Below are positions 12,569-45,470 of a stretch of 64,000 bases of DNA, piece by piece. Under the pieces are notes generated by a model. The model was not told the origin of the DNA. It ran no database searches and saw only the letters and a list, made by a program, of their open reading frames with translations. Every line of letters begins with the position of its first letter. The first letter of the stretch is position 1. The position numbers were made by a program, and so were the translations under genes. Source of the stretch: Amycolatopsis regifaucium (GTDB lineage Bacteria; Actinomycetota; Actinomycetes; Mycobacteriales; Pseudonocardiaceae); NCBI RefSeq assembly GCF_001613935.1, contig NZ_LQCI01000052.1, positions 147,651-211,650 of the forward strand. Direction: 5' to 3'.

Positions 12569-17993
<5,425 letters not shown>

Positions 17994-17997
<4 letters not shown>

Positions 17998-29920: not shown

Positions 29921-32900
29921 CGAGGGCTCCCCTGGTCGGATGTGTGATGAGGCGGTGGGTCGATCCAGTGCCGCTCCCGCTGGAACGGGTAACCCGGCAA
30001 CGGGACGCGGCCCGGTTCACCGCCCGCGAACCGGGCGGCCCACTCGACGTCGCCGCCCCCGGTCCACTGGACAGCCAGGTCCCGCTCCGGCCCGGCCGGG
30101 CCTTCGACGTCGGTTCCGTTCGCCAGCACCGCGTCGAGCGCGGTGACCGCCGACGTGACCGAGTCCGCCACCACGGCGGCCCGGTGTCCGAACGTCCGTC
30201 GGGCCGAAAGCGTGTACGCCGCGTCCCCGAGGTCCGGCGCGTCGGTGGCGAGCCGCTCGCGCAGCCGGGCCACCGCTTCGCGCAACACCTTCGCGTCACG
30301 CGCGGACACCGGCAGCACGAACGGACCGCTCGCCGCCTGCCGTGGCGGGAGAGCCGGGGCCTCCGCCACGATCATGTGCACGTTCGTGCCGCCCATGCCG
30401 AACGAGCTGACCCCGGCCACCCGCCGGTCGCGGGCGGGCCAGTCGGCGGCCTTCGCCGGCACGTACCAGGGGCCGCCCGCCAGGTCGACCTCCGGGTGCG
30501 GGGCCGTGAAGTGCAGGCTCGGCGGGATGACGCCGTGCCGCACGGACAGCACGGCCTTGATCAGCCCGGCGATGCCCGCCGCCGCGTCGAGGTGCCCGAT
30601 GTTCGTCTTCACCGAGCCCAGGGCGCACGTCTCCGGCGACGCGTCCCGGTAGACGCGGTTGAGCGCGGCGACCTCGATCGCGTCACCGAGCGGGGTGCCG
30701 CTGCCATGGGCTTCCAGCAGCGCGACCTCGTCCGGGGTGACCTCCGCGATGGCCAACGCCTCGGCCACCGCGGCCGCCTGACCGGCCGGTCCCGGCACGG
30801 CGTAGCCCGCGCGGTCCGGGCCGTCGTTTGTGATCGCCCAGCCGGGTAGCACGGCGTAGACGTGGTCGCGGTCGGCGAGCGCGTCCGCCAGCCGCCGCAG
30901 CACGACCACCCCGGCGCCCGAACTGAACCCGGCGCCCGCCGCGGCGACGTCGAACGCGCGGCACCGGCCGTCCGGCGAGACGAGCCCGCCGCCGCGGTAC
31001 CGAGGCCACGTCACGTTCGCCCCGCCGGCCAGCGCGACGTCGCACCGGTAGTCCGCGAGGCTCTGCGCCGCCAGCGCCACGGCCGCGAGCGAGCTGGAGC
31101 ACGCGCTCTGCACGGCCACCGCGGGGCCGGTCAGCCCGAGCCGGTAGGCGACCTGGCCGGGCAGGTGGTCGGTGAGCTGGCGACCGGTCAGCCGCCCCTC
31201 CCAGTCGTCCGGGTCGACGTCGCCGGTCACCGCCGGGTTGCCGAACAGGTGGAACAGGAAGTAACGGTTCACCGAGGCGGCCGTGAACACCCCGACCGGC
31301 CCGGTCTCGGTGGCGGGGTCACGTCCCGCGTCCTCGAGGGCCCGCCACGCCGTTTCGAGGAACAGCCGGTGCTGCGGGTCGGTCCGCGCGGCCTCGTCGG
31401 CGGTGAGCCCGAAGAACCCGGCGTCGAACTCCTCGACACCCTCGATCCGGCCACCCGCCCGCACGTACGCCGGGTCGGCACGCAGGCCCGGCCCGATGCC
31501 CAGCGCCGCCAGCTCGTCGTCGGCGTAGTCGTGGATCGAGTCGGCACCCGCGCACAGGTTCCACCAGAACGAGGCGGCGTCCGGCGCGCCGGGGAACCGG
31601 CAGGCCAGCCCGACGACGGCGATGAGATCCCCGGCCGGCTCCTCCGCGGCGACCGTTGGCTGAATGTCCGAAGTGGACTCCGTGAGCCAGGCCGCCTGTC
31701 CGGCGATCGTCGTGCGCTCGAACAGGGCGAGCAGCGGGACGTCCCTCTCGAACTCGTCGGCCAGCCGCACCTGTACCCGGCCGAGCCGCAGCGAGTCACC
31801 GCCCGCGTCGAAGAACGCCTCGGTACGCCCGACCCGGTCGCGGCCCAGCACCGCGCACCAGATCCGGTGCACGCGTTCCTCGGCCGGGGTCAGCCGCTCG
31901 GCCGGACCGGTCGAGGCCGTCCGCGGGTCCGGCAGCGCTCGTTCGTCGAGTTTTCCGGTGACGGTCAAGGGGAACTCGTCCAGCACCGCGACGGCCGCGG
32001 GTACCGAGTAGCCGGGCAGGACGTCCGCCAGCGCGGCCCGCAGCGCCCGGCCGTCCGGCCGTGAGCCGGCCGTGGTCACGTAGGCGAGCAGGTCACCGGC
32101 ACGCACGATCGCGCGGGCTTCGGCGACGCCGGGCTGTTCGGCGAGCCGGGTCTCGATCTCGGTCAGCTCCACCCGGAAGCCGCGGACCTTGACCTGCCGG
32201 TCGAGGCGACCGAGACACACGAGGTTCCCGTCCGGCAGCAGCCTGCCGAGGTCGCCGGTCCGGTAGCGACGGCCGCCGTCGGTCGTCACCCCGAACGCCG
32301 GGCTGGGCTGGTCGAGGTAGCCGTCGACGAGATGGCTTCCGCGCACTTCGAGTTCGCCGCTGTCCAGCACGGTGAGGGCGAACCCGGGCAGCGCGCGCCC
32401 GATCGGCAACGGCCCGTCGACGTCGGGATCCAGCTCGGCGGCGGTCGTGCGGTACTGGGCGGCGAAAGTCACCTCGGTGGCGCCGTAGCCGTTGACGAAC
32501 ACGCACCCCGGCGCGAACCGGCCGCGGCGGACGTCGGCGTGGGTCGCTTGCTCGCCGCCGAGCAGCACGGTGCGCACGGACGGGAGGCCGGTCTCGCCGA
32601 GGACGTCGAGCAGGTGCCGATAGACCGTGGGCGTCGAGTGGTAGACGGTCACCTCGTGCCGGGCCAGCTCGCGCGCGGCATGGGCGAGGCCGTGCGCGCG
32701 CAGGTCGACCGGCACGAGTGCGGCGCCGGTGAGCAGTGCCGGGTAGAGGTCGGGGATCGCCGCGTCGAAGCCGAACGACGCGAGCAGGCTGAGCCGGTCG
32801 GCGGCGGTGATGCCGAGCGCGGCGATCTGGTTGTCGACGACGTGCAGGAGGTTGCGGTGGGTCTGCGCGACGGCCTTCGGCCTGCCGGTGGACCCGGAGG

Positions 32901-33354
32901 TGAACAGCACGTACGCCGGACTGTCCGGATCGGTTTCGGGCACCGGGAGCGGCGCGGTCTCCGTGCCAGGGTGCACGAGCCGCGCGGATCCCGTGCGGCA
33001 CAAGAACTCTGCCAGCTCGACGTACTCGGGATCGGCGAGTACGGCGGTCACCCGCGCTGCCGCGAGCTGGTACTCCAGGCGCTCCCGGGGGAAGGTCGGG
33101 TCCAGCGGGACGTAGGTGCAGCCCGCGGCGAGGGTGCCGAAGAGCGCCGCGATCGTGGCGCTGCCGTGCCCGGTGACGAGCCCGACCCGCTCCCCCGGCT
33201 GGACACCGGCGTCGCGCAACCTCAGCGCGCGGCCGCCCGCGAGCCCGGCGAGCCGGGCGTAGGAGAGGCCGGTGCCGTCCTCGAAGACCGCGATCCGGTC
33301 GGGCGATCGCCGGACGTGTCCGTCGAATCGGCCGACGCAGCCGGATTGGGTCAT
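29917..33354 (-). CDS. hybrid A-PCP-KS loading protein, no AT
   Basis: This 1145-residue first enzyme of the line has an adenylation domain (about 1-480; FTSGSTG near 151) and a carrier (DAGGDSLRLG, Ser near 520). A ketosynthase (about 575-1010) has the full triad: SACSSSL with Cys near 750, EAHGSGT and NIGHL. After the KS there is only the linker normally found around an AT (VPLPGYPFQRERHWI at the C-terminus), but no AT, KR or ACP. The hand-read code DAPHLGGFAK is not one I can assign. No condensation domain precedes the A domain, so this is the loading module. ATG 33354 lies in the stop of a 21-codon leader; no good ribosome site precedes it, which suggests coupled translation. Confidence 0.88.
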   Translation of the reverse strand: MTQSGCVGRFDGHVRRSPDRIAVFEDGTGLSYARLAGLAGGRALRLRDAGVQPGERVGLVTGHGSATIAALFGTLAAGCTYVPLDPTFPRERLEYQLAAARVTAVLADPEYVELAEFLCRTGSARLVHPGTETAPLPVPETDPDSPAYVLFTSGSTGRPKAVAQTHRNLLHVVDNQIAALGITAADRLSLLASFGFDAAIPDLYPALLTGAALVPVDLRAHGLAHAARELARHEVTVYHSTPTVYRHLLDVLGETGLPSVRTVLLGGEQATHADVRRGRFAPGCVFVNGYGATEVTFAAQYRTTAAELDPDVDGPLPIGRALPGFALTVLDSGELEVRGSHLVDGYLDQPSPAFGVTTDGGRRYRTGDLGRLLPDGNLVCLGRLDRQVKVRGFRVELTEIETRLAEQPGVAEARAIVRAGDLLAYVTTAGSRPDGRALRAALADVLPGYSVPAAVAVLDEFPLTVTGKLDERALPDPRTASTGPAERLTPAEERVHRIWCAVLGRDRVGRTEAFFDAGGDSLRLGRVQVRLADEFERDVPLLALFERTTIAGQAAWLTESTSDIQPTVAAEEPAGDLIAVVGLACRFPGAPDAASFWWNLCAGADSIHDYADDELAALGIGPGLRADPAYVRAGGRIEGVEEFDAGFFGLTADEAARTDPQHRLFLETAWRALEDAGRDPATETGPVGVFTAASVNRYFLFHLFGNPAVTGDVDPDDWEGRLTGRQLTDHLPGQVAYRLGLTGPAVAVQSACSSSLAAVALAAQSLADYRCDVALAGGANVTWPRYRGGGLVSPDGRCRAFDVAAAGAGFSSGAGVVVLRRLADALADRDHVYAVLPGWAITNDGPDRAGYAVPGPAGQAAAVAEALAIAEVTPDEVALLEAHGSGTPLGDAIEVAALNRVYRDASPETCALGSVKTNIGHLDAAAGIAGLIKAVLSVRHGVIPPSLHFTAPHPEVDLAGGPWYVPAKAADWPARDRRVAGVSSFGMGGTNVHMIVAEAPALPPRQAASGPFVLPVSARDAKVLREAVARLRERLATDAPDLGDAAYTLSARRTFGHRAAVVADSVTSAVTALDAVLANGTDVEGPAGPERDLAVQWTGGGDVEWAARFAGGEPGRVPLPGYPFQRERHWIDPPPHHTSDQGSPR

Positions 33355-33416
33355 CGGGCGTCGAGCAGTCGCTCCGAGGTTTTCCGAACGCGCGACGACA
33401 ACGGCGTGGACTTCAT
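33351..33416 (-). CDS. 21-residue leader peptide coupled to the NRPS-PKS operon
   Basis: The reading frame ATG 33416 to TGA 33351-33353 encodes 21 mostly basic and polar residues (MKSTPLSSRV, then RKTSERLLDAR). GGGGAG lies four bases before its ATG, the best ribosome site in this stretch, and its TGA overlaps the ATG of the first biosynthetic gene (ATGA). Ribosomes finishing the leader could start the NRPS gene directly. I know of no homologue; it is called on position, ribosome site and overlap alone. An in-frame upstream ATG at 33435 of the NRPS frame lacks a ribosome site. Confidence 0.5.
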   Translation of the reverse strand: MKSTPLSSRVRKTSERLLDAR

Positions 33417-34027
33417 CTTGCTCCCCAGTGACCATTCAAGTGAAGAATTACGCAAGGTTAAGTCGACCGGCCGCGTCGAGGAATACGAATTCCATCGATT
33501 TAGGCCAAATAGCCCACGATCTTGGACCGCATGTTGCAGTTATCGACGTCTTTCAGCCCAATCTGCGCACTGGTTCGCACTTCACGCTCGATTTCTCGAC
33601 CACCTTCGACACTCGATCGATTACGTTCGGTAATGTGTCGGAGATTAACCGACACCTTGTTGCGGAATACGTTCACGAACCACTCGCAGGCGAATTCTCT
33701 GTAATCGATTCAGATATACGACGCCGGTCGTACCGCCTCCGAGGAAATGTCGCGTTCGCGTAACTTGTTCGGCACGGTGGCGTGCTTGACACCCGGTCGG
33801 CCGCCGGATCGAGCCAGGGTCGGCCGGGCTGCCTGTCCCGAGCGCCAGATGCTTCGACGCTGGGCAGTGGCAACGTGTCGCGAGCGAAAACTTCGAAGAA
33901 ACGCGCACCGCGAAGATTCCAGCCACGACAACTTCGCCTCGCCTCCGGCCGCGGTGTGACCTCGGGGAGTGATATGTCTAATGTGGACAGTTACGATCGG
34001 ATACCCTCTCGCTCTACAGTCGGCGAC
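33417..34027. other. divergent promoter region between NRPS-PKS operon and HIT gene
   Basis: About 600 bases carry no convincing gene; both adjacent genes are transcribed outward. The part from 33440 to 33760 is clearly richer in A and T than the rest of the window, as expected of a major promoter region. It contains the inverted repeat at 33635-33655. The HIT-proximal part (33770-34020) is GC-rich, without recognisable signals. Confidence 0.6.
33635..33655. promoter_or_regulatory. GTGTCGG-N7-CCGACAC inverted repeat
   Basis: GTGTCGG at 33635-33641 and CCGACAC at 33649-33655 are perfect inverted copies with the AT-rich spacer AGATTAA. The site lies about 220 bases upstream of the leader peptide, in the AT-rich part of the promoter region. 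It is a candidate operator for the 24-kb operon; no regulator gene lies inside the cluster. Confidence 0.4.
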
Positions 34028-34471
34028 ATGACTGAAACCGACACCGCTTGCGTGTTCTGCGAGATCGCGGCCGGGCGCGAAGGCGCCGGGCGCGTGCTGT
34101 TCGAGGACGAGCGGACGATCGCGTTCCTCGATCACACCGCCGTGATGCCGGGGCACACCCTCGTGGTGCCCCGGGTCCACGCCGCGGACATCTGGGAGAT
34201 ATCCACCGAGGACGCGGCCACCGTCATGCGGACCGTTCACTCGATGGCCGCCCGGATCCGCGACGTGCTGCGGCCGGACGGACTCACTTTGTTCCAGGCC
34301 AATCGATCCGCCGGCTGGCAGGACGTCTTCCACCTTCACGTTCACCTGGTACCCAGGGCGACGGGTGATCATTTGACCAGGCCCTGGGTCGCGTCGGCGA
34401 AACGCGACGAGGAGCTGGCGGCCGTGCGCGCCCTGCTCCTGGACGGCCGGTCAAGCCCGCTCGAACCGTGA
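34028..34471 (+). CDS. HIT family nucleotide-binding hydrolase
   Basis: This 147-residue histidine-triad protein has CVFCEIAAG at residues 8-16, a central DHTAVMPGHTLVVPRVHA and the catalytic triad FHLHVHLVPR near residue 105. HIT proteins hydrolyse nucleotide phosphoramidates or dinucleotides in the cytoplasm. It is divergent from the NRPS-PKS operon and upstream of the exporter-led operon, with no evident tie to either. ATG 34028 gives the standard length. Confidence 0.9.
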   Translation: MTETDTACVFCEIAAGREGAGRVLFEDERTIAFLDHTAVMPGHTLVVPRVHAADIWEISTEDAATVMRTVHSMAARIRDVLRPDGLTLFQANRSAGWQDVFHLHVHLVPRATGDHLTRPWVASAKRDEELAAVRALLLDGRSSPLEP

Positions 34472-34652: not shown

Positions 34653-35858
34653 GTGACGCATCCCGACCCCACCGTTCGTCGCGCCAGAATGGCCGTGGTG
34701 GGCGTTTTCGGGCTCTGCGGGCTGATCTGCGCGGTCTGGAGCGCGTCACTGCCGTCGATCAACGCCCGGCTCCACCTCGGCGAGGGCCGGATCGGACTGG
34801 TGCTGCTGGTCACCGCGCTCGGCTCGATGAGCTGCATGCCGGTGGCCGGGCGGCTGGCCGACGCCTGGTCGAGCCGCGCGGTGTCGCGGGTGGTGGCGCC
34901 CGTCGCGGCGCTCACGCTGCTCGGTCCCGCGCTGGCCCCGAGTTTTCCGGTACTGCTGGCCGCCGCGTTCGTGCTCGGCGGTGCGCTCGGTTCCTTGGAC
35001 GTGGCGATGAACGGGCAGGCCGTCGAGGTGGAAACCCGATACGGCCGCCCGATCATGTCGGCGTTCCACGGGGTGTGGAGCCTGGGCGGGGTGGCCGGTG
35101 GCCTGACGATCACCGTCGGACTGCATCTCGACACGGACGGCACGGCGTTGATGGTCGGCGCCGGCGTGGTCGCGGCGGTGCTGTTCTTCCTGCCGGGCAG
35201 GCATTTGCTGTCCGGCGCGGCCCGGCGCGAGGTGGCCGGTGAACCGGTCGTCTCTTCCGGTGGGCTGCCGACGAGCACCATCATGCTGCTCGGCCTGGTC
35301 GCGCTCGCCGGTTTCGTCAGCGAAGGCGCGGGTTACAGCTGGGCTTCACTGCACGCACAAGAAGCGCTCGGCGCGGACCCGGCGACGGCGTCGTTCGCGT
35401 ACACGGCGTTCGCCGCCGCGCTGACCGTCTCCCGGCTCACCGCCGATCGGCTCCGGTCGAAAGTGCGCCCGGCGAACTGGATGCGGTGCGCGGGATCGGT
35501 CGCCGTCCTGGGTTACGCGCTCGTTCTCGCCGCACCTCTGCTTCCCGCGGGACGGCTGGCTTTCGGCCTGGTCGGCTGGGTGGTCGTGGCGGCCGGTCTG
35601 GCGACCGTCGTACCGGCGATCTTCAGCGCCGTCGGCGCGGGTGGCGCGAACGTCGGGCGCGCGCTTTCCTGGGTGACCACCATGGCCTACGCCGGTCAGC
35701 TGGGCGGACCCGCGGTCATCGGCCCGCTCGCCGACGCCACCTCGCTGGGCACCGCCATGGTGGTACCCGGCCTGCTCGCGGCGGTGATCGCCATCGCCGG
35801 ACCGATCGTCGTCCGGCGGGCGACCGACCGGCGACTCACCACAGCCCGACTCGACTGA
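34653..35858 (+). CDS. MFS transporter, probable exporter
   Basis: This 401-residue transporter has 12 predicted membrane helices and the MFS loop GRLADAWSSRAVSR after helix 2. Helix-rich segments include VFGLCGLICAVWSASLPSIN and FHGVWSLGGVAGGLTITVGL; the latter resembles the YbjJ-type subgroup. GTG 34653 follows AAGGAAG by nine bases. It lies 26 bases before the deacetylase gene that opens a chain of overlapping genes, so it likely heads that operon and exports its product. The substrate cannot be read from sequence. Confidence 0.85.
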   Translation: MTHPDPTVRRARMAVVGVFGLCGLICAVWSASLPSINARLHLGEGRIGLVLLVTALGSMSCMPVAGRLADAWSSRAVSRVVAPVAALTLLGPALAPSFPVLLAAAFVLGGALGSLDVAMNGQAVEVETRYGRPIMSAFHGVWSLGGVAGGLTITVGLHLDTDGTALMVGAGVVAAVLFFLPGRHLLSGAARREVAGEPVVSSGGLPTSTIMLLGLVALAGFVSEGAGYSWASLHAQEALGADPATASFAYTAFAAALTVSRLTADRLRSKVRPANWMRCAGSVAVLGYALVLAAPLLPAGRLAFGLVGWVVVAAGLATVVPAIFSAVGAGGANVGRALSWVTTMAYAGQLGGPAVIGPLADATSLGTAMVVPGLLAAVIAIAGPIVVRRATDRRLTTARLD

Positions 35859-35884
35859 GTGACACGCACCATGGGGGTAAATCG

Positions 35885-36925
35885 ATGCTCTATGCCGGAA
35901 TCAGCTGGACCGCCGCGGGTTTCGAGATCGCGGTTCTCGACGGGAACGGGCACGGTGACCGGCCGCCCGTGCGGTTCGCCGCGGACCGGACCAAGGAGAT
36001 CGCGTCCTATCTGAAAGGTCTCGGCGGCCCCGTCACCACGGTCGTCGACAGCACCAACGGCATGCTCGACGGCGGCTTCATGGCCGCCGGCCTGGACATG
36101 TACCGCGCCGACCCGGCCATCCTGCCGCCGAGGCCTGCCTTCGGCTCGGTGTCCGCCGTCGAGCTGGCGCGCGCGGCCTGGCGGGATCCCGCTTCCGTGG
36201 TACGACTGAAGATCGATCCGGGTTCGCTCACCGGGCGGATGGACGAACACTTTGCGGCGATGGCCTCCAGTGACGAAGCGTTGGCCACGATGACAGCCGC
36301 CGGACGCTCGCTGGAGCACGGCGATCGGACGCGTGGGCAGATCGCGCTCACCTTCGACGACGGCCCAAATCCTCCTTACACAGGGCGGATTCTCGACATT
36401 CTCGAGTCTTACGGCGTCTGCGCCACCTTCTTCTGTGTCGGGCTGAACGCGGGCGCGCGCGGCGAGGACCTGCGACGCATGGCGGAACAAGGCCATGGCA
36501 TCGGCAATCACACGTGGTCCCATCCCTACCTGCCGGATCTCTCGCCGACGGAGCTGGCCGACCAGCTGAACCGCACCGGCGACGTGGTCGCGGCGGCCGT
36601 CGGCACCGCGCCCGCGTTCTTCCGCCCGCCCTACGGATCACGGACGCCCGAGGTGCTCCGTTCGCTGACGAACCTCGGCACGCGGCTCGCGCTGTGGGAC
36701 GTCGACACCGAGGACTGGGCGATGCGCGGCCCGGACGTGATCGCGCGAACCGTGCTTCGGCGAACGAAACCCGGCTCGATCGTGCTGATGCACGACGGAG
36801 GCGGCGACCGTTCCCAGACCGTCACCGCCTTGCCGTCGGTGATCGAAGGACTGCTTGCCCGCGGACTCGAATTCGTCCGCGTCGAAGACCTGGTGACCCC
36901 GAACTTCGCGACAGGAAAGAGATGA
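35885..36925 (+). CDS. polysaccharide deacetylase (CE4) with extra N-terminal domain
   Basis: In this 346-residue protein the C-terminal half (about 145-340) is a NodB/CE4 deacetylase: TFDDGP with the catalytic and metal Asp pair, HTWSHP with the two metal histidines, RPPYGSRTP and DVDTEDW, and LMHDGGGDRSQT with the catalytic His. Such enzymes remove acetyl groups from N-acetylamino sugars. There is no signal peptide, so it acts in the cytoplasm. Residues 1-130 (YAGISWTAAGFEIAVLDGNG, then VVDSTNGMLDGGFMAAGLDM) do not belong to CE4 and resemble the RNase-H-like N-terminal domain of IS110-type transposases without its key acids. It overlaps the N-oxygenase gene by four bases. Confidence 0.85.
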   Translation: MLYAGISWTAAGFEIAVLDGNGHGDRPPVRFAADRTKEIASYLKGLGGPVTTVVDSTNGMLDGGFMAAGLDMYRADPAILPPRPAFGSVSAVELARAAWRDPASVVRLKIDPGSLTGRMDEHFAAMASSDEALATMTAAGRSLEHGDRTRGQIALTFDDGPNPPYTGRILDILESYGVCATFFCVGLNAGARGEDLRRMAEQGHGIGNHTWSHPYLPDLSPTELADQLNRTGDVVAAAVGTAPAFFRPPYGSRTPEVLRSLTNLGTRLALWDVDTEDWAMRGPDVIARTVLRRTKPGSIVLMHDGGGDRSQTVTALPSVIEGLLARGLEFVRVEDLVTPNFATGKR

Positions 36926-37890
36926 CGATGCATCCCATCGAGCTTGCGGAGACCCACGTCGGACCGAGCATGCTGCGCAGGCTGGCGGCGGCCTGGCCCA
37001 AGCGCGCGACCATCCGCACCGACATGGCCGGGGTGGTCAACCCCGGCGAATACGACCCCAGCCTGCTGGACTACCCGCTGCACCTCATGCCGTTCTCGGA
37101 GCACCCGCGGTTCCTCGAAGCGTCGGAAAAGCAGCGGTTGCTGGTCAACACACTGGCGTGGATCGCCTACAACGAACGTGTCATCGCCGCCGAGGAACAC
37201 GTGGCGAACCCGACCTTCGAAAAACTCGCGCACGGCGTCTTCTCCGGCGTCGACCGCTACGAGGTCAAGGAGGTCGTCCAGCAGTCCCACATCGACGAGG
37301 TGTGGCACACCTACATGCACATGATGGCGATGCAGCGCACCCGCGAAGCACGCGAGATCGACCTCGAAGAGTCCTTTGTGGAGCCGGTCACGAACCGCAG
37401 GCTCTACGCGCTCGCCGAGAGCATGGCCGAGCAGTGGCAGCGCGACCTGCTCTATCTCATGTGGACGGTCGTCGGCGAGGTCAGCATCAACGCCTTCCTC
37501 GACCTGCTGGCCGGTGACAAGTCCATCCAGCCGATGCACGCGCTGATCGCCCGGCTGCACGCCCGCGACGAGGCGGCGCACGGTCCCGTGCTCGCCGAGC
37601 TGATGAAGGAGATCTACCCGAAGCTGGAACCGGAGCGGCAGGAGTTCTTCATCCGGTACCTCCCCGAGGCGATCACCGCGTTCGGCGCCGAGGACTACGA
37701 GCTGTGGCCGCAGGTGCTCCGGTTCGCCGGTATCGAGCACGTCGACGAGATCATCGCCGACTGCCGGGCCGCGGAGGACGGCGAGGTCATGATGAACGAT
37801 TTCGCCACCGTGCACCGGCTGCTGCGGGACCTCGGGATCGAAGACAAGGTGAAGTACCACTTCGTGACGGCCAAGGGCGGGGTGAAATGA
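36922..37890 (+). CDS. AurF-type di-iron N-oxygenase
   Basis: This 322-residue protein keeps the whole AurF metal site: Glu91 (AEEH), Glu126 and His129 (DEVWH), Glu186 (VVGEVSIN), His213, Glu217 and His220 (LHARDEAAH). Spacings match AurF, which oxidises an aryl amine to a nitro group; relatives oxidise amines to hydroxylamines or act on other amine substrates. It directly follows and overlaps the deacetylase (ATGA), which could unmask the amine it oxidises. Catalytic competence is well supported; the substrate is inference. Confidence 0.87.
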   Translation: MTMHPIELAETHVGPSMLRRLAAAWPKRATIRTDMAGVVNPGEYDPSLLDYPLHLMPFSEHPRFLEASEKQRLLVNTLAWIAYNERVIAAEEHVANPTFEKLAHGVFSGVDRYEVKEVVQQSHIDEVWHTYMHMMAMQRTREAREIDLEESFVEPVTNRRLYALAESMAEQWQRDLLYLMWTVVGEVSINAFLDLLAGDKSIQPMHALIARLHARDEAAHGPVLAELMKEIYPKLEPERQEFFIRYLPEAITAFGAEDYELWPQVLRFAGIEHVDEIIADCRAAEDGEVMMNDFATVHRLLRDLGIEDKVKYHFVTAKGGVK

Positions 37891-38417
37891 TCCTGACCGG
37901 GCCGGAGATCACCGAGTCGGTGACCGACGGCCGGATCGCGATCTCCCCGTTCAGCCCGGATCAGGTCAATCCGAACAGCTACAACGTCAAGCTCGGCGGC
38001 ACGCTGATGTCCTACCGGGACAAGATCGTCGACGCCTACCATCCGAACCCGACCAAGACGATCCAGCTGCCCGAGGACGGGTACGTGCTCCAGCCCGACC
38101 AGCTCTATCTCGGGCACACCGAGGAGCGGATCGGCTCGGACATCTACGTGCCGCTGTTGTTCGGCCGGTCCTCGGTCGGCAGGCTCGGGTTGTTCGTCGA
38201 GATCACCGCCCCGATCGGGGACATCGGATTCCACGGCCAGTGGACGCTCATGCTCTCCCCCGTGCAGCCGTTGCGCGTCTACCGCGGTATGAAGATCGGC
38301 CAGATCATGTTCTTCGTGTCCTCCGGTGAGATCGACCTCTACGCGGGGAAGTACCAGTCGGCGGTCGGCCCGCAGGAGTCCCGCTACTGGCGCGACAGAG
38401 TGGCGGTGACCTCGTGA
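37887..38417 (+). CDS. dCTP deaminase-like protein 1 (catalytic Glu missing)
   Basis: This 176-residue member of the dCTP deaminase/dUTPase fold has the phosphate-binding motif GRSSVGRLGLFVEITAP and the C-terminal tail KYQSAVGPQESRYW typical of Dcd. Where Dcd has the catalytic Glu (VLEF in Escherichia coli, Glu138) this protein reads TLML, with Met. It is therefore unlikely to deaminate on its own. It overlaps the N-oxygenase gene upstream and its own paralogue downstream, each by four bases. It may bind a nucleotide, or pair with protein 2, which keeps the Glu. A role in the operon's pathway is more likely than housekeeping. Confidence 0.82.
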   Translation: MILTGPEITESVTDGRIAISPFSPDQVNPNSYNVKLGGTLMSYRDKIVDAYHPNPTKTIQLPEDGYVLQPDQLYLGHTEERIGSDIYVPLLFGRSSVGRLGLFVEITAPIGDIGFHGQWTLMLSPVQPLRVYRGMKIGQIMFFVSSGEIDLYAGKYQSAVGPQESRYWRDRVAVTS

Positions 38418-38938
38418 TCCTCACCCGCAAGGCGATCGAAAAGGCGCTGGAGAGCGGGGACATCGCGATCGACCCGTTCGAGGCGGACCGGTTGTCGCCC
38501 AACGCCTACGACTGGCGCCTCGGCGAGAAGATGCGAGTGTTCGACACGGAACTGGACGCGGCCAGATCGACGCCGTTCACCGAGCTCGTCATCCCGCCCG
38601 AGGGTCTCGTGCTCGAACCGGGGAGGCTGTACCTCGGGGTCACCCACGAGCGGACCCATTCCGAGCGATACGCGCAGATGATCAACGGTGACCACACCAT
38701 CGGCGGGCTCGGCATCTGGGTCCATGTGTCGGCGCCGCTCGGGCACGTCGGCCACGCGATCAACTGGACATTGGAGATCAGGGTGGCCAGGCCGGTCCGG
38801 GTCTATCCGCTGATGACCTTCGGCAAGATCATCTTCCTGGTGGCGCACGGATCGCCGTCGAGCTACCAACGGATCGGGACGAAGTACACGAACACGGCCG
38901 GTATCGACATTTCCCGGCTGTACGAGGAATTGTCGTGA
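38414..38938 (+). CDS. dCTP deaminase-like protein 2 (RSS motif missing, Glu kept)
   Basis: This 174-residue paralogue of the preceding gene shares the N-terminal pattern (MILTRKAIEKALESGDIAID against MILTGPEITESVTDGRIAIS) and overall fold. The phosphate-binding RSSxxRLG is replaced by HTIGGLG, but the catalytic Glu position is kept (NWTLEIRVA). The tail KYTNTAGIDISRLYEE is a diverged Dcd tail. Losses in the two paralogues are complementary, which suggests a mixed trimer with composite active sites. GTG 38414 overlaps the upstream stop; its stop overlaps the next GTG. Confidence 0.8.
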   Translation: MILTRKAIEKALESGDIAIDPFEADRLSPNAYDWRLGEKMRVFDTELDAARSTPFTELVIPPEGLVLEPGRLYLGVTHERTHSERYAQMINGDHTIGGLGIWVHVSAPLGHVGHAINWTLEIRVARPVRVYPLMTFGKIIFLVAHGSPSSYQRIGTKYTNTAGIDISRLYEELS

Positions 38939-39987
38939 AGACGCTGACCGGGATCGACCTCCCGCCGGGCAGCCCCGGCGGGAGCGTCGAGCTGCTCAAG
39001 GATCTCTACCTCGCGCCGGAAGCACCGATCGAGGCCGGTGTCTTCATGCTCGGCTCCGGCGCCACCCCCGGCGGGCCGGAACTGCTCGACGTGCCGGGCA
39101 AGCAGCTCGGCGGACCAGGGTTCTGGTCCTATGTAGACGATCTGGCGATGGCCATCCGGTGCCGTTTCGATCCGGCCGATTTCGACGCGGTGCACTGGCA
39201 GCACCTGAGTTTCGGTGCCACACCCGCGTTGCTCCGCGCGTTCCCCGACCACCCGCGGATCGCGCTGGTGCACGGCACCGACCTGCTCTTCGCGGCGGAG
39301 CATCCCACCCAGCGTGAGGTGCTGCGCGAGGCCGCGGCGGCGGCGGGCGCGGTCGTCGTGCCGACCTCGGCGATGGCCGACCTCCTGCGCACGGTCACGC
39401 CGGTCGAACCGAAGCGGATCGTCCACCTGCCATGGGGAATCCCCGATCGGCTGCTGCACTCACCGCCGCCCCGGCCCGAACGGCGGGACGGCTTCCGGGT
39501 GCTGTACGCGGGGCGCCTGACCGCGGAGAAGGGAGCGGCCGAGCTGATCGCGGACCTGACGGGGCTGCCCGATGTGACGTTGTGCGTCGCGGCGCCCGAG
39601 CACGAGTTCGCCGCACTCCCGGTGGACACGGCGCAAGTCGACTACCTCGGCTGGTTCGACCGGCCCGCGTTGTGGCAGGCCTTCGCGCGGCACGACCTGC
39701 TCGTGGTGCCGTCGACGACCTTGGAGGCATTCGGACTCGTCGCGGTCGAGGCGCAGGCCTGCGGACTGCCGGTGGCGTATCAGCCGGTGCCGGGGCTGAC
39801 CGAGGTGCTGGGCGACTCGGCCATCCGGGTCGCCCGGTCCACGCTCGCGGACACCGTCCGGCTGCTGGCCGAGGACGACAGCGCCCTGACGGACCTGCGT
39901 GCGGCCGGGCTGTGCAACGCGGCCCGGTTCCCGCTGTCCAGTACCGCGGCCGGGCTGGAAGCGCTGACCGCCGGGGTGCGCCGGTGA
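38935..39987 (+). CDS. GT4-family glycosyltransferase
   Basis: This 350-residue GT-B glycosyltransferase has the nucleotide-binding half RVLYAGRLTAEKGAAELIAD and the family-4 signature EAFGLVAVEAQACGLPVAY (the E-x7-E motif near residue 260). The N-terminal half contains VHWQHLSFGATPALL and IALVHGTDLLF. It would transfer a sugar from a nucleotide donor with retention of configuration. No membrane segment is present. It overlaps both neighbours by four bases and follows the nucleotide-type proteins, so its acceptor may be the pathway's nucleoside or amino-sugar intermediate. Confidence 0.87.
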   Translation: MKTLTGIDLPPGSPGGSVELLKDLYLAPEAPIEAGVFMLGSGATPGGPELLDVPGKQLGGPGFWSYVDDLAMAIRCRFDPADFDAVHWQHLSFGATPALLRAFPDHPRIALVHGTDLLFAAEHPTQREVLREAAAAAGAVVVPTSAMADLLRTVTPVEPKRIVHLPWGIPDRLLHSPPPRPERRDGFRVLYAGRLTAEKGAAELIADLTGLPDVTLCVAAPEHEFAALPVDTAQVDYLGWFDRPALWQAFARHDLLVVPSTTLEAFGLVAVEAQACGLPVAYQPVPGLTEVLGDSAIRVARSTLADTVRLLAEDDSALTDLRAAGLCNAARFPLSSTAAGLEALTAGVRR

Positions 39988-41765
39988 TCGCGCAGCGCGG
40001 GCTGTTCGCCGGGCCCGATCCGGTGATCAGCAAGGATCTCTACGCTCAGCTCGTCTCGGGCGGCGCCCGCCGCGACCGGACCACGCTCACGCTCGAACCG
40101 GCGTCGAAGGTCTCCGGCAACACCTACTTCGGGCGGTTCCCGGCCGGCTACTGGCAGCGCTGGACGAGCGCCGGCGTGGTCGAGGTCGAACTGGAGGCCA
40201 GTGGTTCCGGCACGGTTTCTTTGCTGGCATCGGATTTCGAGGGCGAGCCACGGGTGGTGGCGGCGCAGGTCGTCGACGGCGCACCGATCTCGCTGGCCGC
40301 TCCCCTCGACCGGTTCGTCGACGGCGGTGCGCTGTGGCTGGACTGGGAAACCGAACCGGGCGAACGACTCGTCGTCCGCGACGTGCGCTGGACGGTTCCG
40401 GCGGCGGAGCGGGCACGGCCGACGGTGGTGACCATCTGCACGATGAACCGCCCGGCCGACTGCCTCGCCACGCTGACCGCGATCGCCGGTGACGACCTGG
40501 CGCTGGCCGCGGTGCACGCCGTGTACGTCGTCGATCAGGGCACAGACCACGTTTCGGCCGAGGACGTTTTGCCGCCGGCCAAGCTCCGGTACCTGCGGCA
40601 GCCGAACCGGGGTGGCGCGGGCGGCTTCACACGCGGCCTGTACGAGGTCGCGGGCGAGCACGTGAACGTGCTGTTCATGGACGACGACATCGTGCTGGAA
40701 CCCGACCTGATCGTCCGGATGACGGCGTTCTCGGCGGCCACGGCGGAACCGCTGATCCTCGGCGGCCAGATGCTGAACCTGCTGCACCCCACGCGCTTGC
40801 ACGCGGCGGCCGAGTACACCGACCTGGACGGCATCCGGCCGGGCAGGCCGGTCCGGCACAGCCTGCACGCGGTCGACCTGCTGGCCACCGATCCGGCCAC
40901 CGGCAGGCCGTACCGGCAGGAGTTCCGCGTCGACGCGGGCTACAACGGCTGGTGGGCGTGCCTGATCCCGGCCGAAGTGGTCAAGGAGGTCGGCTATCCA
41001 CTCCCCCTGTTCTTCCAGGGCGACGACGCCGAGTACTCCTACCGGGCCAGGGAACAGGGGTTCCCGACGGTGACGCTGCCGGGCGCGGGCCTGTGGCACA
41101 CCGACTTCCCGTGGAAGGACGCCGACGAGCTCAATCGGTATTTCATCCTGCGCAACTACACGATCATCTCGGCGCTGCACGGTGATTTCCCCGTGCTGAA
41201 GATCGCCGGAACCCTGCTCGCCGAGCTGGTCGAGGCCCTGCTGGGCATGCGGTACGGCGCCGCGGCGACACTGATCCAAGCGGTGTCGGACTTTCTCGAC
41301 GGGCCGGACATCCTGCGCGACGGCGGGGTTTCGGCGCTCGCCCGGATCCGCGAGGTGCGTTCCCGCCATCCTGAGACCGTCGTACATCCACCGACGGCCG
41401 TGCCCGGACTCGCGTCGAACGACATCGTGATCAGCGAACCGGGTGTCTTCGACCGGCTGGCACTCGGGCCGTTGCTCGGCGTGCACCGGCTCGCCGTGGG
41501 CTCCGTGCCGGTTTCGGAGGCCGACTGGTGGCGTGTCGGCGCGTTGCGCACGGCGGTCGTGACCGACGCGTCGCAGCGGGGCGTCCGTGTCCGCACGTAC
41601 GACCGGGGGCACCTGGCCCGGCTGGCGTACCAGGGCGCGCGGGTGCTCACCAGGTTCATCCGCGACGGCGCCGCCGTCCGCGAGCAGTACCGCGCGGCGC
41701 TGCCGCGGCTGACCAGCCGGGACGCCTGGACCGGATTGTTCTCGGACGAAGGATTGATCGCATGA
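39984..41765 (+). CDS. GlfT2-like family 2 glycosyltransferase
   Basis: In this 593-residue protein the N-terminal 130 residues form a beta-sandwich, followed by a GT-A domain with TVVTICTMNRPADCL, NRGGAGGFTRGL and the metal motif FMDDDIVLEPD; later come GYNGWWACLIP and LWHTDFPWKD. This arrangement matches GlfT2, the galactofuranosyltransferase of mycobacterial arabinogalactan (about 640 residues), though the substrate may differ. GTG 39984 overlaps the stop of the GT4 gene. With two glycosyltransferases, the operon probably builds at least a two-sugar product. Confidence 0.85.
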   Translation: MIAQRGLFAGPDPVISKDLYAQLVSGGARRDRTTLTLEPASKVSGNTYFGRFPAGYWQRWTSAGVVEVELEASGSGTVSLLASDFEGEPRVVAAQVVDGAPISLAAPLDRFVDGGALWLDWETEPGERLVVRDVRWTVPAAERARPTVVTICTMNRPADCLATLTAIAGDDLALAAVHAVYVVDQGTDHVSAEDVLPPAKLRYLRQPNRGGAGGFTRGLYEVAGEHVNVLFMDDDIVLEPDLIVRMTAFSAATAEPLILGGQMLNLLHPTRLHAAAEYTDLDGIRPGRPVRHSLHAVDLLATDPATGRPYRQEFRVDAGYNGWWACLIPAEVVKEVGYPLPLFFQGDDAEYSYRAREQGFPTVTLPGAGLWHTDFPWKDADELNRYFILRNYTIISALHGDFPVLKIAGTLLAELVEALLGMRYGAAATLIQAVSDFLDGPDILRDGGVSALARIREVRSRHPETVVHPPTAVPGLASNDIVISEPGVFDRLALGPLLGVHRLAVGSVPVSEADWWRVGALRTAVVTDASQRGVRVRTYDRGHLARLAYQGARVLTRFIRDGAAVREQYRAALPRLTSRDAWTGLFSDEGLIA

Positions 41766-42577
41766 AGCCCTTGCTGGTGGCGACGGATCTCGACGGCACG
41801 GTGGTGCGCCCGGACGGCACGATCTCCGACCGCACGGTGTCGGCGTTCGCGCTGGTCGAAGAAGCGGGTGCCGAATTCGTGGTCGCCACCGGCCGTCCGC
41901 CGCGGCTGGTGGCCGAGATCGCCGGGAGATTCGGTGACCGGGGCCTCGCGATCTGCTCCAACGGCGCCTATCTGTACGACATGCACACCAGGACGGTCGT
42001 CGAGGAGTACGCCATCACGACACCGGATCTCGTCGAGGCGGTCGCCAGGCTGCGTGCGGTGATCCCCGGCATCGGCATCGCCGTGGAGCACGCCGACCGG
42101 TTGGTCGCGGACTCGATTTACGAGCCGTGGGAATGGGACCGCGGCGCCACGGTCGAGCGCGCCGACGACGCGACGCTGCTGAGTCTGCCCGCGCCGAAGC
42201 TGCTCGGCAGGCACCCGTCGCTTTCCGCCGACGAACTCCTCGCACTGGCCAAGCCGGCCTTGGACGGGCTCGTCGCCGCGTACCACTCCAACGGCTCACG
42301 CCTGGTCGAAGCGATCGCGATCGGGGTGAACAAGGCGGCCGCGCTGGCCCGGCTCGCCGAGCGGAGCGGGGTGGCGGCCTCGGACGTGATCGCGTTCGGG
42401 GACATGCCCAACGACCTGCCGATGCTGTCCTGGGCGGGTACGGCGTACGGCGTCGCCAACGCGCACCCCGACGTGCTCGCGCTGGTCGACCACGTGATCG
42501 GCAGCAACAGCGAAGACGGCGTCGCCGTCGTACTCGAACAGCTCTACGCGAAGGAGAACTCCGTTGTCGGTGAATGA
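41762..42577 (+). CDS. Cof-type HAD phosphatase
   Basis: This 271-residue HAD-IIB protein has motif I DLDGTVVRPDG (nucleophile Asp9, acid Asp11), motif II VVATGRPP, the lysine of motif III in GVNKAAALARL and motif IV IAFGDMPNDLPML. Such enzymes remove phosphate from sugar phosphates or other small phosphates in the cytoplasm. It overlaps the GlfT2-like gene (ATGA) and the GH3 gene (14 bases). In this operon it may dephosphorylate a glycosyl- or nucleotide-phosphate intermediate. Confidence 0.88.
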   Translation: MKPLLVATDLDGTVVRPDGTISDRTVSAFALVEEAGAEFVVATGRPPRLVAEIAGRFGDRGLAICSNGAYLYDMHTRTVVEEYAITTPDLVEAVARLRAVIPGIGIAVEHADRLVADSIYEPWEWDRGATVERADDATLLSLPAPKLLGRHPSLSADELLALAKPALDGLVAAYHSNGSRLVEAIAIGVNKAAALARLAERSGVAASDVIAFGDMPNDLPMLSWAGTAYGVANAHPDVLALVDHVIGSNSEDGVAVVLEQLYAKENSVVGE

Positions 42578-43985
42578 GTTGGACCGGCTCGTCAACGCCT
42601 GCCTGCTGGCCGGGTACACCGGGGCCGAACCGCCGTCGTGGGTGCATTCGGCGCTCGACGAGGGGCTCGCCGGGGTCACCCTGTTCCCGGCCAATCTGGC
42701 CGGTGGCAGGCAAGCGATCGTCCGGCACACCCGCGCGCTGCGGCGGACGGCCCCCGACGCGCTGATCGCGCTGGACGAGGAGGGGGGTGACGTCACCCGT
42801 CTCGACCACGAAACCGGCAGCGCGTATCCGGGCAACCTGGCGCTCGGTGAGATCGACGACCTGGCCTTGACCGCCGAAGTCGCCGCGGCCATCGCGGCCG
42901 AGCTGAAGGCCTGCGGGGTCAACCTCAACCTGGCCCCGTCGATCGACGTCAACAGCGATCCCGACAACCCGATCATCGGCGTCCGGTCTTTCGGCGCCCG
43001 GCCGGAGCTGGTCGCTTCCCACGGCGCGGCGTTCATCGAGTCCATGCAGGACGGTGGCGTGTCCGTCTGCGCCAAGCATTTTCCCGGTCACGGCGCGACG
43101 GTGACCGATCCACATCACGCACTGCCCATTGTGGACTCTCCGGCCGCGACCTTCCGCGAGCGCGAGCTGGCGCCCTTCGTGTCGGCGATCAAGGCGGGCG
43201 TCCACGCGATGATGACCGCCCACGTGCTCTATCCCGCACTGGACCCGGACAACCCGGCGACGCTGAGCCGCCGTCTCCTCCACGACCTCGTCCGCGAAGA
43301 GCTGGGCTACGAAGGCGTGCTGCTCTCCAGCGCGATCGCCATCGAGGTCGGTCAAGGCAACCAGGACATCGGCGCGGTGGCCGTCCGTGCTCTGCGGGCG
43401 GGATCGGATCTGCTGCTGCTCGGGCCGACCGAGGGCGCGGAGCTCGCCGCGGTCATCCGGGCGTCGGTCGCCGAAGCCGTCCGCGCGGGCACACTTTCGT
43501 GGGAAACCCTGGAAACCGCAGCCGCACGGGTGTCCACCTTGCGCACCCTGGCCGCACCCCGCCCGCTCGGACTCGAAGCCGCGCGGCGCGCTCTGCGCGT
43601 CGAGGGACCGGTCACCTTGACCGCTCCCGCCTTCGTGGTCGAACTGCGCGCCGGTGGCAACGCGCTGGGTGAAGCCCACTGGAGCCTCGCCGGCCGGTTG
43701 ACCGAACTCGGCGCCGCCCACTCGACGGTGCTCGCCGCCGAAGACGACCCGGTGGTCCTGCCGTCTACCGGCCCGGTGGTGCTGGTGGTCCGGGACGCTT
43801 ACCGGACCCCTTGGCAGGCGGCCCGGCTCGCCGAGGCGCTGGCCGCCCGGCCCGACGCGATCGTGGTGGCCGTCGGTATGCCGGACGACGTGACTCCGCA
43901 GGTCAAGGCCAGTATCCGGACCTACGGCGCCGGTGCGGTCAACATCGAGGCGGCGGTGGAACAGCTCACCGCACAGTGGCCGTGA
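42564..43985 (+). CDS. GH3/NagZ-like protein lacking the nucleophile Asp
   Basis: This 473-residue homologue of beta-N-acetylhexosaminidase NagZ has LIALDEEGGDVTRL, the signature KHFPGHGATVTDPHH (normally D-S/T-H, here DPH) and an added C-terminal region of about 130 residues. In NagZ the nucleophile lies in SDDLSM; here the same place reads SSAIAI, so the nucleophilic Asp is absent. Hydrolysis by the usual double displacement is unlikely; the protein may bind a sugar, act by another mechanism or be structural. TTG 42564 is preferred because AAGGAG lies seven bases ahead; GTG 42570 is an alternative. It ends the operon. Confidence 0.82.
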   Translation: MSVNELDRLVNACLLAGYTGAEPPSWVHSALDEGLAGVTLFPANLAGGRQAIVRHTRALRRTAPDALIALDEEGGDVTRLDHETGSAYPGNLALGEIDDLALTAEVAAAIAAELKACGVNLNLAPSIDVNSDPDNPIIGVRSFGARPELVASHGAAFIESMQDGGVSVCAKHFPGHGATVTDPHHALPIVDSPAATFRERELAPFVSAIKAGVHAMMTAHVLYPALDPDNPATLSRRLLHDLVREELGYEGVLLSSAIAIEVGQGNQDIGAVAVRALRAGSDLLLLGPTEGAELAAVIRASVAEAVRAGTLSWETLETAAARVSTLRTLAAPRPLGLEAARRALRVEGPVTLTAPAFVVELRAGGNALGEAHWSLAGRLTELGAAHSTVLAAEDDPVVLPSTGPVVLVVRDAYRTPWQAARLAEALAARPDAIVVAVGMPDDVTPQVKASIRTYGAGAVNIEAAVEQLTAQWP

Positions 43986-44123: not shown

Positions 44124-45470
44124 TTGACGAACGTGCCCGCCTCGCACGACACGGCCGGTTCGCGGTCCGGCGGCGTCAGCCGGTCGGCGTTCAGGCGGGT
44201 CCTGGCGGGCAGTACCGCCGGCGCGGTGCTGGAGTGGTACGACTTCGCGCTCTACGGAATCCTGGCGGCCACCGTGCTCGGGCCGCTGTTCTTCCCCGGT
44301 GGCGACGGGTTCGCCCAGCTGCTGCTCGCGCTGGCGACACAGGGACTCGGCTTCGTCGCGCGCCCGATCGGCGGCATCGTCTTCGGGCATCTCGGTGATC
44401 GCCTCGGGCGCAAACCCATGCTGGTGACCACTTTCCTGCTGCTCGGGCTGTCGACGTCGGCGATCGGGCTGCTCCCCACCTACGCCCAGGCCGGCATCGG
44501 CGCGACGATCTCGCTCGTCGTGCTGAGGCTGATCCAGGGGTTCGCCCTCGGCGGCGAGTTCGGCGCGGCGGTGCTGATGGTCAGCGAGTACGGAAGCCCG
44601 AAGCGGCGCGGCTTCTGGTCGGCGTGGCCACAGGCGGGAGCGCCGCTGGGCACGGTGCTGGCCACGGCCGTGGTCGGCGGGATCGCCTTGGTATTCCCCG
44701 AGAACACCTTCGACCAGTGGGGGTGGCGCGTCGGTTTCCTGTTCGCGATCCCGCTCCTGGTCATCGGTTTCTGGATCCGGCGGCGCATCGACGAGTCGCC
44801 GGTGTTCCAGGAGGCGCGAGCGCGGGCCACGGCGGCCACGGACGTCGTCCGGGAGCGATCGAGCATCGTCGAGACACTCGCCCACCCCGGTCCCCTCCTC
44901 CGCGGTCTCGGCGTGCGGCTGGGCGAGAACGTGGCGTTCTACGTCTACACCGTCTTCGTGGTCGCCTATGCCACGAAGACCTTCGGCTACGACAAGCCCG
45001 ACGTCCTCCTCGCCGTGGCCGTCGGGTCACTGCTGCAGTTCGCCGGGATGCTGACCGGCGGCTACTGGTCGGACCTCGTCGGGCGGCGTCTCGCCATGCT
45101 GGTCCCGGCGGCGGGCCTCGCGATCTGGGCACCGGTCTTCTTCGCCGTCGTCCAGGCCGACAACCTGTTTCTGCTCTATCTCGGCGTCGGCGTCGGCGCG
45201 GCACTGCACGGCCTCCTGGCCGGGCCGGAAGCCGCGTGGATCGCCGAGCTCTTCCCGACCCGCCGCCGGTTCGCCGGTGCTTCCCTGGTGTTCCAGGGCT
45301 CCTCGATCATCGCCGGCGCACCCGCGCCGCTCATCGCCGTGTGGCTGGCCGGAAAACACGGTCCCACGGCGGTCGTGCTGTACCTCGTCGGCACGATCGC
45401 CGTCACCCTTCTCGCGCTGCTCCTCAGCACCGAAACCCGGGGCGCCGACCTGAACTCCGACAGCAGGTGA
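44124..45470 (+). CDS. MHS-type MFS metabolite:proton symporter
   Basis: This transporter of about 448 residues belongs to the metabolite:H+ symporter subgroup (ProP, ShiA, KgtP). It has GAVLEWYDFALYGILA in helix 1, GHLGDRLGRKPMLV after helix 2 and RLIQGFALGGEFGAAVLMV in helix 4; twelve helices are expected. TTG 44124 follows GAGGAG by six bases; GTG 44133 is in frame. It lies 138 bases beyond the GH3 gene and may belong to that operon or stand alone. Family members import small carboxylates, betaine or shikimate. Confidence 0.85.
   Translation: MTNVPASHDTAGSRSGGVSRSAFRRVLAGSTAGAVLEWYDFALYGILAATVLGPLFFPGGDGFAQLLLALATQGLGFVARPIGGIVFGHLGDRLGRKPMLVTTFLLLGLSTSAIGLLPTYAQAGIGATISLVVLRLIQGFALGGEFGAAVLMVSEYGSPKRRGFWSAWPQAGAPLGTVLATAVVGGIALVFPENTFDQWGWRVGFLFAIPLLVIGFWIRRRIDESPVFQEARARATAATDVVRERSSIVETLAHPGPLLRGLGVRLGENVAFYVYTVFVVAYATKTFGYDKPDVLLAVAVGSLLQFAGMLTGGYWSDLVGRRLAMLVPAAGLAIWAPVFFAVVQADNLFLLYLGVGVGAALHGLLAGPEAAWIAELFPTRRRFAGASLVFQGSSIIAGAPAPLIAVWLAGKHGPTAVVLYLVGTIAVTLLALLLSTETRGADLNSDSR

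Follow-up and report, generated by a model that had tools for sequence, protein, structure and literature searches.

A conserved Amycolatopsis operon with two Dcd-like proteins of complementary residue losses and a constant GT4 glycosyltransferase partner

Phaseolotoxins are phosphoramidates (PMC4887976, PMC6429109; here and below, papers are cited for their passages on the point at issue). Their gene cluster in Pseudomonas syringae (argK-tox/pht) carries two adjacent genes annotated as “deoxycytidine triphosphate deaminase”, phtJ and phtK, followed by the PPDK-like gene phtL, and nearby it encodes an ornithine aminotransferase, two desaturases, a HAD protein, an adenylylsulfate kinase (APS kinase), and an L-amino acid ligase; mutation of 14 genes abolished toxin formation in 11 cases, in a passage that does not name each gene (PMC3927611). 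Here, we describe a tandem pair of Dcd-like proteins in a 64,000-nucleotide stretch of Amycolatopsis regifaucium (NCBI RefSeq assembly GCF_001613935.1, contig NZ_LQCI01000052.1, positions 147,651 to 211,650), called the window in the following. The pair lies in an operon, recognized as such from gene order and overlaps, and its two members look like complementary half-enzymes. Together with a constant GT4 glycosyltransferase, this split pair is, judging from the sequences compared, the most interesting part of the locus and extends far beyond the window; the function that we propose for it is drawn by analogy.

Two further phosphorus-nitrogen (P-N) systems are relevant. The O-methyl phosphoramidate pathway of Campylobacter, which involves a glutamine kinase, N-phospho-glutamine, and 3'-phospho-cytidine diphosphoramidate, is a parallel for the use of cytidine nucleotides in P-N work, and the Streptomyces products phosphoramidon and talopeptin are deoxysugar phosphoramidates with the sugar joined via P-N (PMC6429109). 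Four of the loci described below (L093, L094, L096, and L100), which hold HIT, GT4, and ATP-grasp-like genes, possibly match the phosphoramidon/talopeptin type. These two compounds also contain a dipeptide part, and their cluster reportedly encodes a phosphoramidate-forming kinase, TalE, and a glycosyltransferase, TalC. We know of no Dcd proteins in the Campylobacter pathway. Compared with the pht cluster, the window operon is without the PPDK-like phtL, the desaturases, the amidinotransferase, and the APS-kinase-like gene, whereas it has GT4, GlfT2-like, CE4, AurF, and HIT genes in addition.

Complementary residue losses in the Dcd pair

Both Dcd proteins belong to the fold family PF22769 (138 and 88.7 bits over a cut-off of 27), which they share with dCTP deaminase and the bifunctional dCTP deaminase-dUTPase. 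Against the NCBIfam model TIGR02274 (cut-off 92.8 bits), Dcd1 scores 96.5 and Dcd2 66.2 bits. Dcd1 passes this dCTP deaminase cut-off although it is without the catalytic Glu, so that automatic naming probably misleads. As alignment reference we used the intact Dcd proteins of three loci (L125, L126, and L127), where the intact gene and a Dcd-Dcd-GT4 cassette are about 6 kb apart. The window Dcd1, referred to as alpha, keeps the motif-3 Asp and the motif-2 Ser and Arg and has Met in place of the deaminase Glu; Dcd2, referred to as beta, keeps the Glu, has His in place of the motif-3 Asp, and has lost the motif-2 Ser and Arg. Neither chain combines the catalytic Glu (TLEL) with the motif-3 Asp, whereas a separate housekeeping Dcd of the same genome (L135) has both intact.

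The same division is found in all 52 paired loci, each with exactly one alpha (Asp kept, Glu lost) and one beta (Glu kept, Asp lost), the partners being adjacent in 48. The TLEL Glu of alpha is replaced by Met in all 33 loci of the GT4 type (defined below) and by Gln in the other 19, and the motif-3 Asp of beta is replaced by His, Asn, or Gln. Motif-2 Ser and Arg are lost in all 33 GT4-type betas, except that L090 keeps the Ser. The sole further locus examined, from Paenibacillus (L134), holds a single intact Dcd and no pair. Active sites in the Dcd/dUTPase family are shared between subunits, and the complementary losses suggest that alpha and beta assemble into a hetero-oligomer whose sites are asymmetric. 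The motif-3 Asp of dUTPase is a catalytic residue, and its exchange for Asn nearly abolishes activity (PMC4827122).

In the Dcd tree, for which the program warns of long branches, the betas form one group (100/99). Alpha and beta distances correlate closely (Mantel r 0.94 over 40 representatives, a value reached by 0 of 2000 permutations), indicating that the two halves were inherited together. An earlier note on this DNA, made from the letters alone, had seen a nucleotide-fold pair that suggested a cytidine/uridine-type component; the pair is indeed central to the unit, but it is an asymmetric pair rather than a generic component.

GT4 as the constant partner

Dcd1 was compared with 396 genomes of the phylum and gave one match besides the own genome, in a family which we presume to be Streptomycetaceae from a Streptomyces plasmid with the same cassette. 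Within this second family, 49 of 326 genomes match Dcd1 at E 1e-30, of which 33 fall into a close class with at least 69% identity. Reading covered 37 loci in 34 of the 49 genomes, with L095 left out of the counts; for the close class, 27 genomes were read, and six (G1153, G1214, G1308, G1224, G1067, and G1283) were judged from match coordinates. Dcd1, Dcd2, and a GT4 relative (50-63% identity to the window GT4) stand together in 27/27 of the genomes read, and the match coordinates also put the three together in the other six. The reverse search gives the same picture: GT4 matches at E 1e-50 occur in 34/326 genomes of the second family, namely, the 33 with a close alpha and one other (L142, G1149), which has a decayed cassette of a Dcd2 fragment, GT4, and a serine hydrolase. 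In the own family, GT4 matches at E 1e-60 are limited to 3/249 genomes, the own genome and two congeners with the operon (L029 and L030). GT4 matches thus track the Dcd pair in both families, which indicates that they go together, and on this sequence comparison Dcd1-Dcd2-GT4 is the core, with GT4 as the constant partner of the pair.

Among 297 genomes of the own family, 94% copies of Dcd2 occur, besides the own genome, only in the two congeners. At E 1e-15, 15 genomes match; the other 12 are four with different tandem pairs (L031 to L034) and eight with a single Dcd-like match, a frame of about 196 amino acids counted from the search only.

The 33 GT4-type loci read comprise the window, L029, L030, the Amycolatopsis xylanica locus L035, the Planotetraspora locus L036, the 27 close-class loci, and the plasmid locus L128. 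A HIT gene is present in 10 of them and a metallophosphoesterase (UshA/SoxB-like) in 23, with both in none and neither in none; the latter 23 also hold a serine hydrolase and a MurA-like gene. Exactly one of the two enzymes per locus makes a phosphoryl-cleaving step look constant. AurF is less common and occurs in six of the 33 (window, L029, L030, L035, L036, and L090). In L093, L094, L096, and L100, the HIT gene is accompanied by MFS, ATP-grasp-like, ROK, and ArgG-like genes, families that were tested on L093 and L094, with the ATP-grasp match of one of the two proteins falling short of the Pfam cut-off.

The surroundings of the pair vary. The cassette of L101 is flanked on one side by a relaxase gene (715-2403, PF03432) and on the other by CRISPR-associated genes (17010-19009, Cas_CT1975 and Cas_Cas5d). 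Tandem Dcd pairs are also found on plasmids of Streptomyces, Nonomuraea, Nocardiopsis, and Rhizobium etli (L128 to L133), where the neighbours include HIT, PIG-L, aminoacyl-tRNA synthetase-like, and radical SAM genes in L129 and methyltransferases at others.

The ten-gene operon and its enzymes

Start and stop mapping of the window places nine plus-strand genes at 34653..43985, preceded by the HIT gene:

33974..34471, plus strand: HIT-family protein (PF01230, E 5e-20; first ATG used, ATG at 34028 as an alternative)
34653..35858, plus strand: MFS transporter, presumed exporter (PF07690, MFS_1)
35885..36925, plus strand: CE4 N-deacetylase (PF01522, Polysacc_deac_1)
36922..37890, plus strand: AurF-type diiron N-oxygenase (PF11583, 121.7 bits, cut-off 29.6)
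37887..38417, plus strand: Dcd1, putative alpha half (DCD family)
38414..38938, plus strand: Dcd2, putative beta half (DCD family)
38935..39987, plus strand: GT4 glycosyltransferase (PF00534, Glycos_transf_1)
39984..41765, plus strand: GlfT2-like GT2 of the galactofuranosyltransferase family (GlfT2_domain3 and Glft2_N; PDB 4fix, E 9e-90)
41762..42577, plus strand: Cof-type HAD-IIB phosphatase (PF08282, Hydrolase_3; TIGR00099, 140.2 bits over 137)
42564..43985, plus strand: NagZ-like GH3 protein (PF00933, Glyco_hydro_3) with Ser for the nucleophile Asp

A gap of 26 bases separates the MFS and deacetylase genes, the next six junctions overlap by 4 bases each, and HAD and NagZ overlap by 14. The HIT gene ends 181 bases upstream of MFS and its product has the HxHxHxx triad intact (sequence inspection and family profile); it is also found in L029, L030, L035, L036, and L090 at 62-85% identity, and by this conservation it is the tenth member of the set. 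The earlier note had described a unit of nine genes with near-continuous four-base overlaps, which agrees with the coordinates and with the order kept in L029, L030, and L035, but it overlooked the HIT gene. A consensus scan of the operon gave no promoter, and terminators were no commoner than in shuffled sequences.

The two congeners keep the order HIT-MFS-CE4-AurF-Dcd1-Dcd2-GT4-GlfT2-HAD-NagZ without change, at 83-98% identity. An AurF scan of genome contigs added three loci. A. xylanica has all ten genes (83-97%); Planotetraspora keeps CE4, AurF, Dcd1, Dcd2, GT4, NagZ, and HIT, the Dcd genes being the best conserved (80 and 78%), with no match to MFS, GlfT2-like, or HAD; and in Nonomuraea (L037), AurF is the sole operon gene, near an NRPS-like frame. 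L090, from a Streptomyces-like genome, holds AurF-Dcd-Dcd-GT4-HIT together, along with a P450, an O-methyltransferase, another HAD, and a CutC-family gene; the 19.5 kb examined contain no match to the deacetylase, NagZ, GlfT2, HAD-IIB, or MFS. The complete order in L029, L030, and L035 argues that the set is not due to chance, and we regard it, on gene order and overlaps, as a real conserved operon, of which we found no published description. AurF together with tandem Dcd genes, the combination for which the earlier note had proposed a neighbourhood search, occurs in five further loci (L029, L030, L035, L036, and L090), and the note's view that the pathway is uncharacterised agrees with the literature, where the gene combination is described nowhere among the matches listed, with thin coverage of subscription journals.

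The AurF-type protein falls under the cut-off of the strict 4-aminobenzoate N-oxygenase model NF045603 (312 against 620 bits). Its closest solved structures are AurF of the aureothin pathway (PDB 3chh, E 2.6e-78), to which it shows clear homology in a different gene neighbourhood, followed by 5hyg/5hyh (E 2.5e-50), labelled an uncharacterised protein, which we take to be CmlI and to which homology is also clear. In the alignment to 3chh, the diiron ligand motifs (E...ExxH, E...ExxH) are kept, and Arg86 aligns with the Arg at AurF position 96, where 5hyg/5hyh has Asn. The equivalent Arg is kept in L036, L090, and L037, whose AurF proteins are 68, 61, and 50% identical to that of the window. Arg96 of AurF presumably binds the carboxylate of 4-aminobenzoate, and its conservation suggests that an arylamine fits better as substrate than a sugar amine. 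Some related N-oxygenases, which act on arylamines or glutamine, stop at the hydroxylamine or nitroso stage (PMC6783550).

The CE4 motifs TFDDGP, HTWSH, RPPYGSRTP, and LMHDG are intact in the deacetylase and invariant in five homologues. In the NagZ-like protein, alignments to 6k5j and 3tev place Ser at the nucleophile Asp of the window copy; this position holds Ser in four homologues and Thr in the fifth, from Planotetraspora, while the KHFPGHG and D-x-H loop motifs are kept. The protein therefore appears dead by the normal route, as the earlier note had read it, and probably binds its ligand without hydrolysing it by that route. Neither the CE4 nor the NagZ-like protein has a signal peptide by eye.

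Phosphorus-nitrogen chemistry and competing readings

The sequences settle the conservation of the operon, the Dcd1-Dcd2-GT4 core, the alpha and beta losses, and HIT and metallophosphoesterase as alternatives. A possible link to P-N chemistry comes from related pairs. In L110 to L113, alpha opens a frame of 825-835 residues, which in L112, the one tested, matches Pfam DCD followed by PPDK_N and PEP-utilizers, and in L032 and L034 a separate PPDK-like gene follows alpha. L112 also holds a desaturase, a HAD, a phosphodiesterase, an ArgD-like aminotransferase, and an ATP-grasp-like protein, as well as a weak P-loop match under the cut-off. The betas of these six loci form one group with the GT4-type betas (100/98). 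HIT enzymes hydrolyse nucleotide phosphoramidates, i.e., they cleave nucleotide P-N bonds (PMC7157772). P-N chemistry is our leading guess from these analogies, not a result.

We tentatively favour, at somewhat less than an even chance, the view that the operon serves specialised metabolism and turns a nucleotide-activated, N-oxidised amine into a small glycosylated molecule, most likely with a phosphoramidate linkage. AurF would oxidise the amine, probably a carboxylate-bearing arylamine. The alpha-beta hetero-oligomer would bind a pyrimidine nucleotide without normal Dcd deamination and, because the motif-3 Asp is kept, might carry out phosphorus-centred, dUTPase-like chemistry in which the amine or hydroxylamine replaces water. 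GT4 would attach a sugar, plausibly N-acetylglucosamine (GlcNAc), given the deacetylase and the NagZ-like binder. From their families, CE4 would take off the acetyl group, the GlfT2-like enzyme would attach a furanose, HAD would take off a phosphate, HIT might cleave a nucleotidyl intermediate or protect the host, and MFS would export the product.

Several observations weigh against this interpretation. Among the ten operon products, family profiles find no P-N forming kinase (PPDK-like or P-loop), unlike in the phaseolotoxin-like loci, and the likeness to phtJ and phtK comes from published annotation and gene content, not from sequences. The complementarity does not hold for motif 2 throughout, as Ser and Arg are kept in 13 of the 19 other betas and the Ser is Gly in 7 of the 52 alphas. 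Alpha may keep some deaminase-like activity, since it passes the dCTP deaminase model. Only 8% of bootstrap trees set the alphas apart by a single branch, and in the tree alpha needs two changes, a single origin being possible. The split between HIT and metallophosphoesterase tracks one branch of the Dcd tree, which suggests one replacement rather than 33 independent cases, and HIT proteins have other substrates too. Finally, some pairs have cytidine-deaminase and nucleotide-sugar genes as neighbours (L133), which would fit a nucleoside product as well.

Such a product, a nucleoside-type antibiotic, is a doubtful but serious possibility. The Dcd pair would provide or alter a pyrimidine nucleotide, which would receive sugars from GT4 and the GlfT2-like enzyme, and AurF would act on the amine of the base or on another amine (e.g., to give an N4-hydroxycytosine-like group). 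The Dcd fold binds pyrimidine nucleotides, related pairs lie beside an annotated cytidine deaminase, a UTP-glucose-1-phosphate uridylyltransferase, methyltransferases, and sugar enzymes, and the common cassette contains MurA-like and UshA/SoxB-like genes. However, no nucleoside hydrolase or base-handling family is found among the ten products, each half is without a residue that the housekeeping deaminase keeps, and the literature ties no Dcd pair to a nucleoside antibiotic among the matches listed. The earlier note had instead proposed a linear chain in which CE4 strips the acetyl group from an N-acetyl sugar and the amine so exposed is oxidised by AurF, which would leave the Dcd pair ancillary. 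The two genes are adjacent with a 4-base overlap, both are present in Planotetraspora, and the deacetylase motifs are intact. The chain is nevertheless weakened by L090, which keeps AurF with the core and has no deacetylase match in the 19.5 kb examined, and by the core itself, which usually stands without AurF. AurF resembles the true arylamine N-oxygenases most, it has the Arg missing from the presumed CmlI chain, and the AurF-like enzymes covered by PMC6783550 act on arylamines or glutamine. The Dcd genes are too well conserved in Planotetraspora to be ancillary, so that an N-oxidised amino sugar, while possible, is an unlikely product.

Modification of a cell-surface glycan or glycolipid, with a wall polymer as substrate of the GlfT2-like and CE4 enzymes, seems less probable still. 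A GlfT2 family member and GlcNAc-directed enzymes are present, but the ten products include no polyprenyl-transferase or flippase family, the absence of a visible secretion signal on CE4 and the NagZ-like protein argues against it, the distribution is patchy (window-type beta in 3/297 family genomes), and AurF and the Dcd pair would have no obvious place. We consider a phage-defence or signalling cassette based on nucleotide depletion the most improbable of all. The HIT protein matches ThsC in PADLOC (E 4e-14, 50.6 bits), and the cassette occurs next to CRISPR-associated genes in L101 and on a plasmid; on the other hand, none of the other nine proteins has a PADLOC match, and sugar and N-oxygenase tailoring by several enzymes is unlike the defence systems known to us.

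On the most far-reaching reading, the pair could represent an enzyme class not described before, in which a hetro-oligomer of the Dcd fold catalyses nucleotidyl or phosphoryl transfer to nitrogen instead of deamination. It would then be a marker of P-N natural products in actinobacteria and rhizobia as well as in the phaseolotoxin cluster, and no earlier phosphoramidate of this kind would be both glycosylated and N-oxidised like the product of the window operon; we put this forward as a speculation that we would sooner doubt than believe. In dozens of clusters, the genes that bear the name “dCTP deaminase” probably do not encode deaminases of the usual kind, and the conserved split pair with its constant glycosyltransferase is a searchable marker for unexplored clusters. 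It offers a concrete target for how P-N bonds arise, the phaseolotoxin warhead included, and the AurF enzyme is placed in a new context.

Two neighbouring regions were considered as parts of the operon. Large nonribosomal peptide synthetase/polyketide synthase (NRPS/PKS)-like genes lie beside it on the minus strand (12565-33435). We rejected them as part of the same system, as the operon-proximal protein (29917-33435), the sole one compared, has no match beside the operon in L029, L030, L035, or L036. A downstream sugar-transporter-like MFS gene (44133-45470) was also left out; it adjoins NagZ in L029, lies past an extra reading frame in L030, and has no match in L035. Upstream of the Planotetraspora operon (L036, 1168-7748), there is an NMT1-type binding protein with a weaker phosphonate-binding match, together with genes that by eye resemble ABC transport and LLM-monooxygenase genes. 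The own genome encodes another GlfT2-like protein (G000:C34), which shares 62% identity with the operon enzyme.

The N-terminal domain of the deacetylase (residues 1-147, window 35885-36325) has no Pfam match. Its structure model, with a predicted local distance difference test (pLDDT) score of 66, is nearest to the IS110-family recombinase IS621 and RuvC (Foldseek E 0.01), whereas the full-length model gives only the CE4 fold among the matches listed. The usual acidic residues look lost by eye, and the domain is kept in Planotetraspora at 54% identity; the model suggests that it is possibly a domesticated transposase-like domain fused to CE4.

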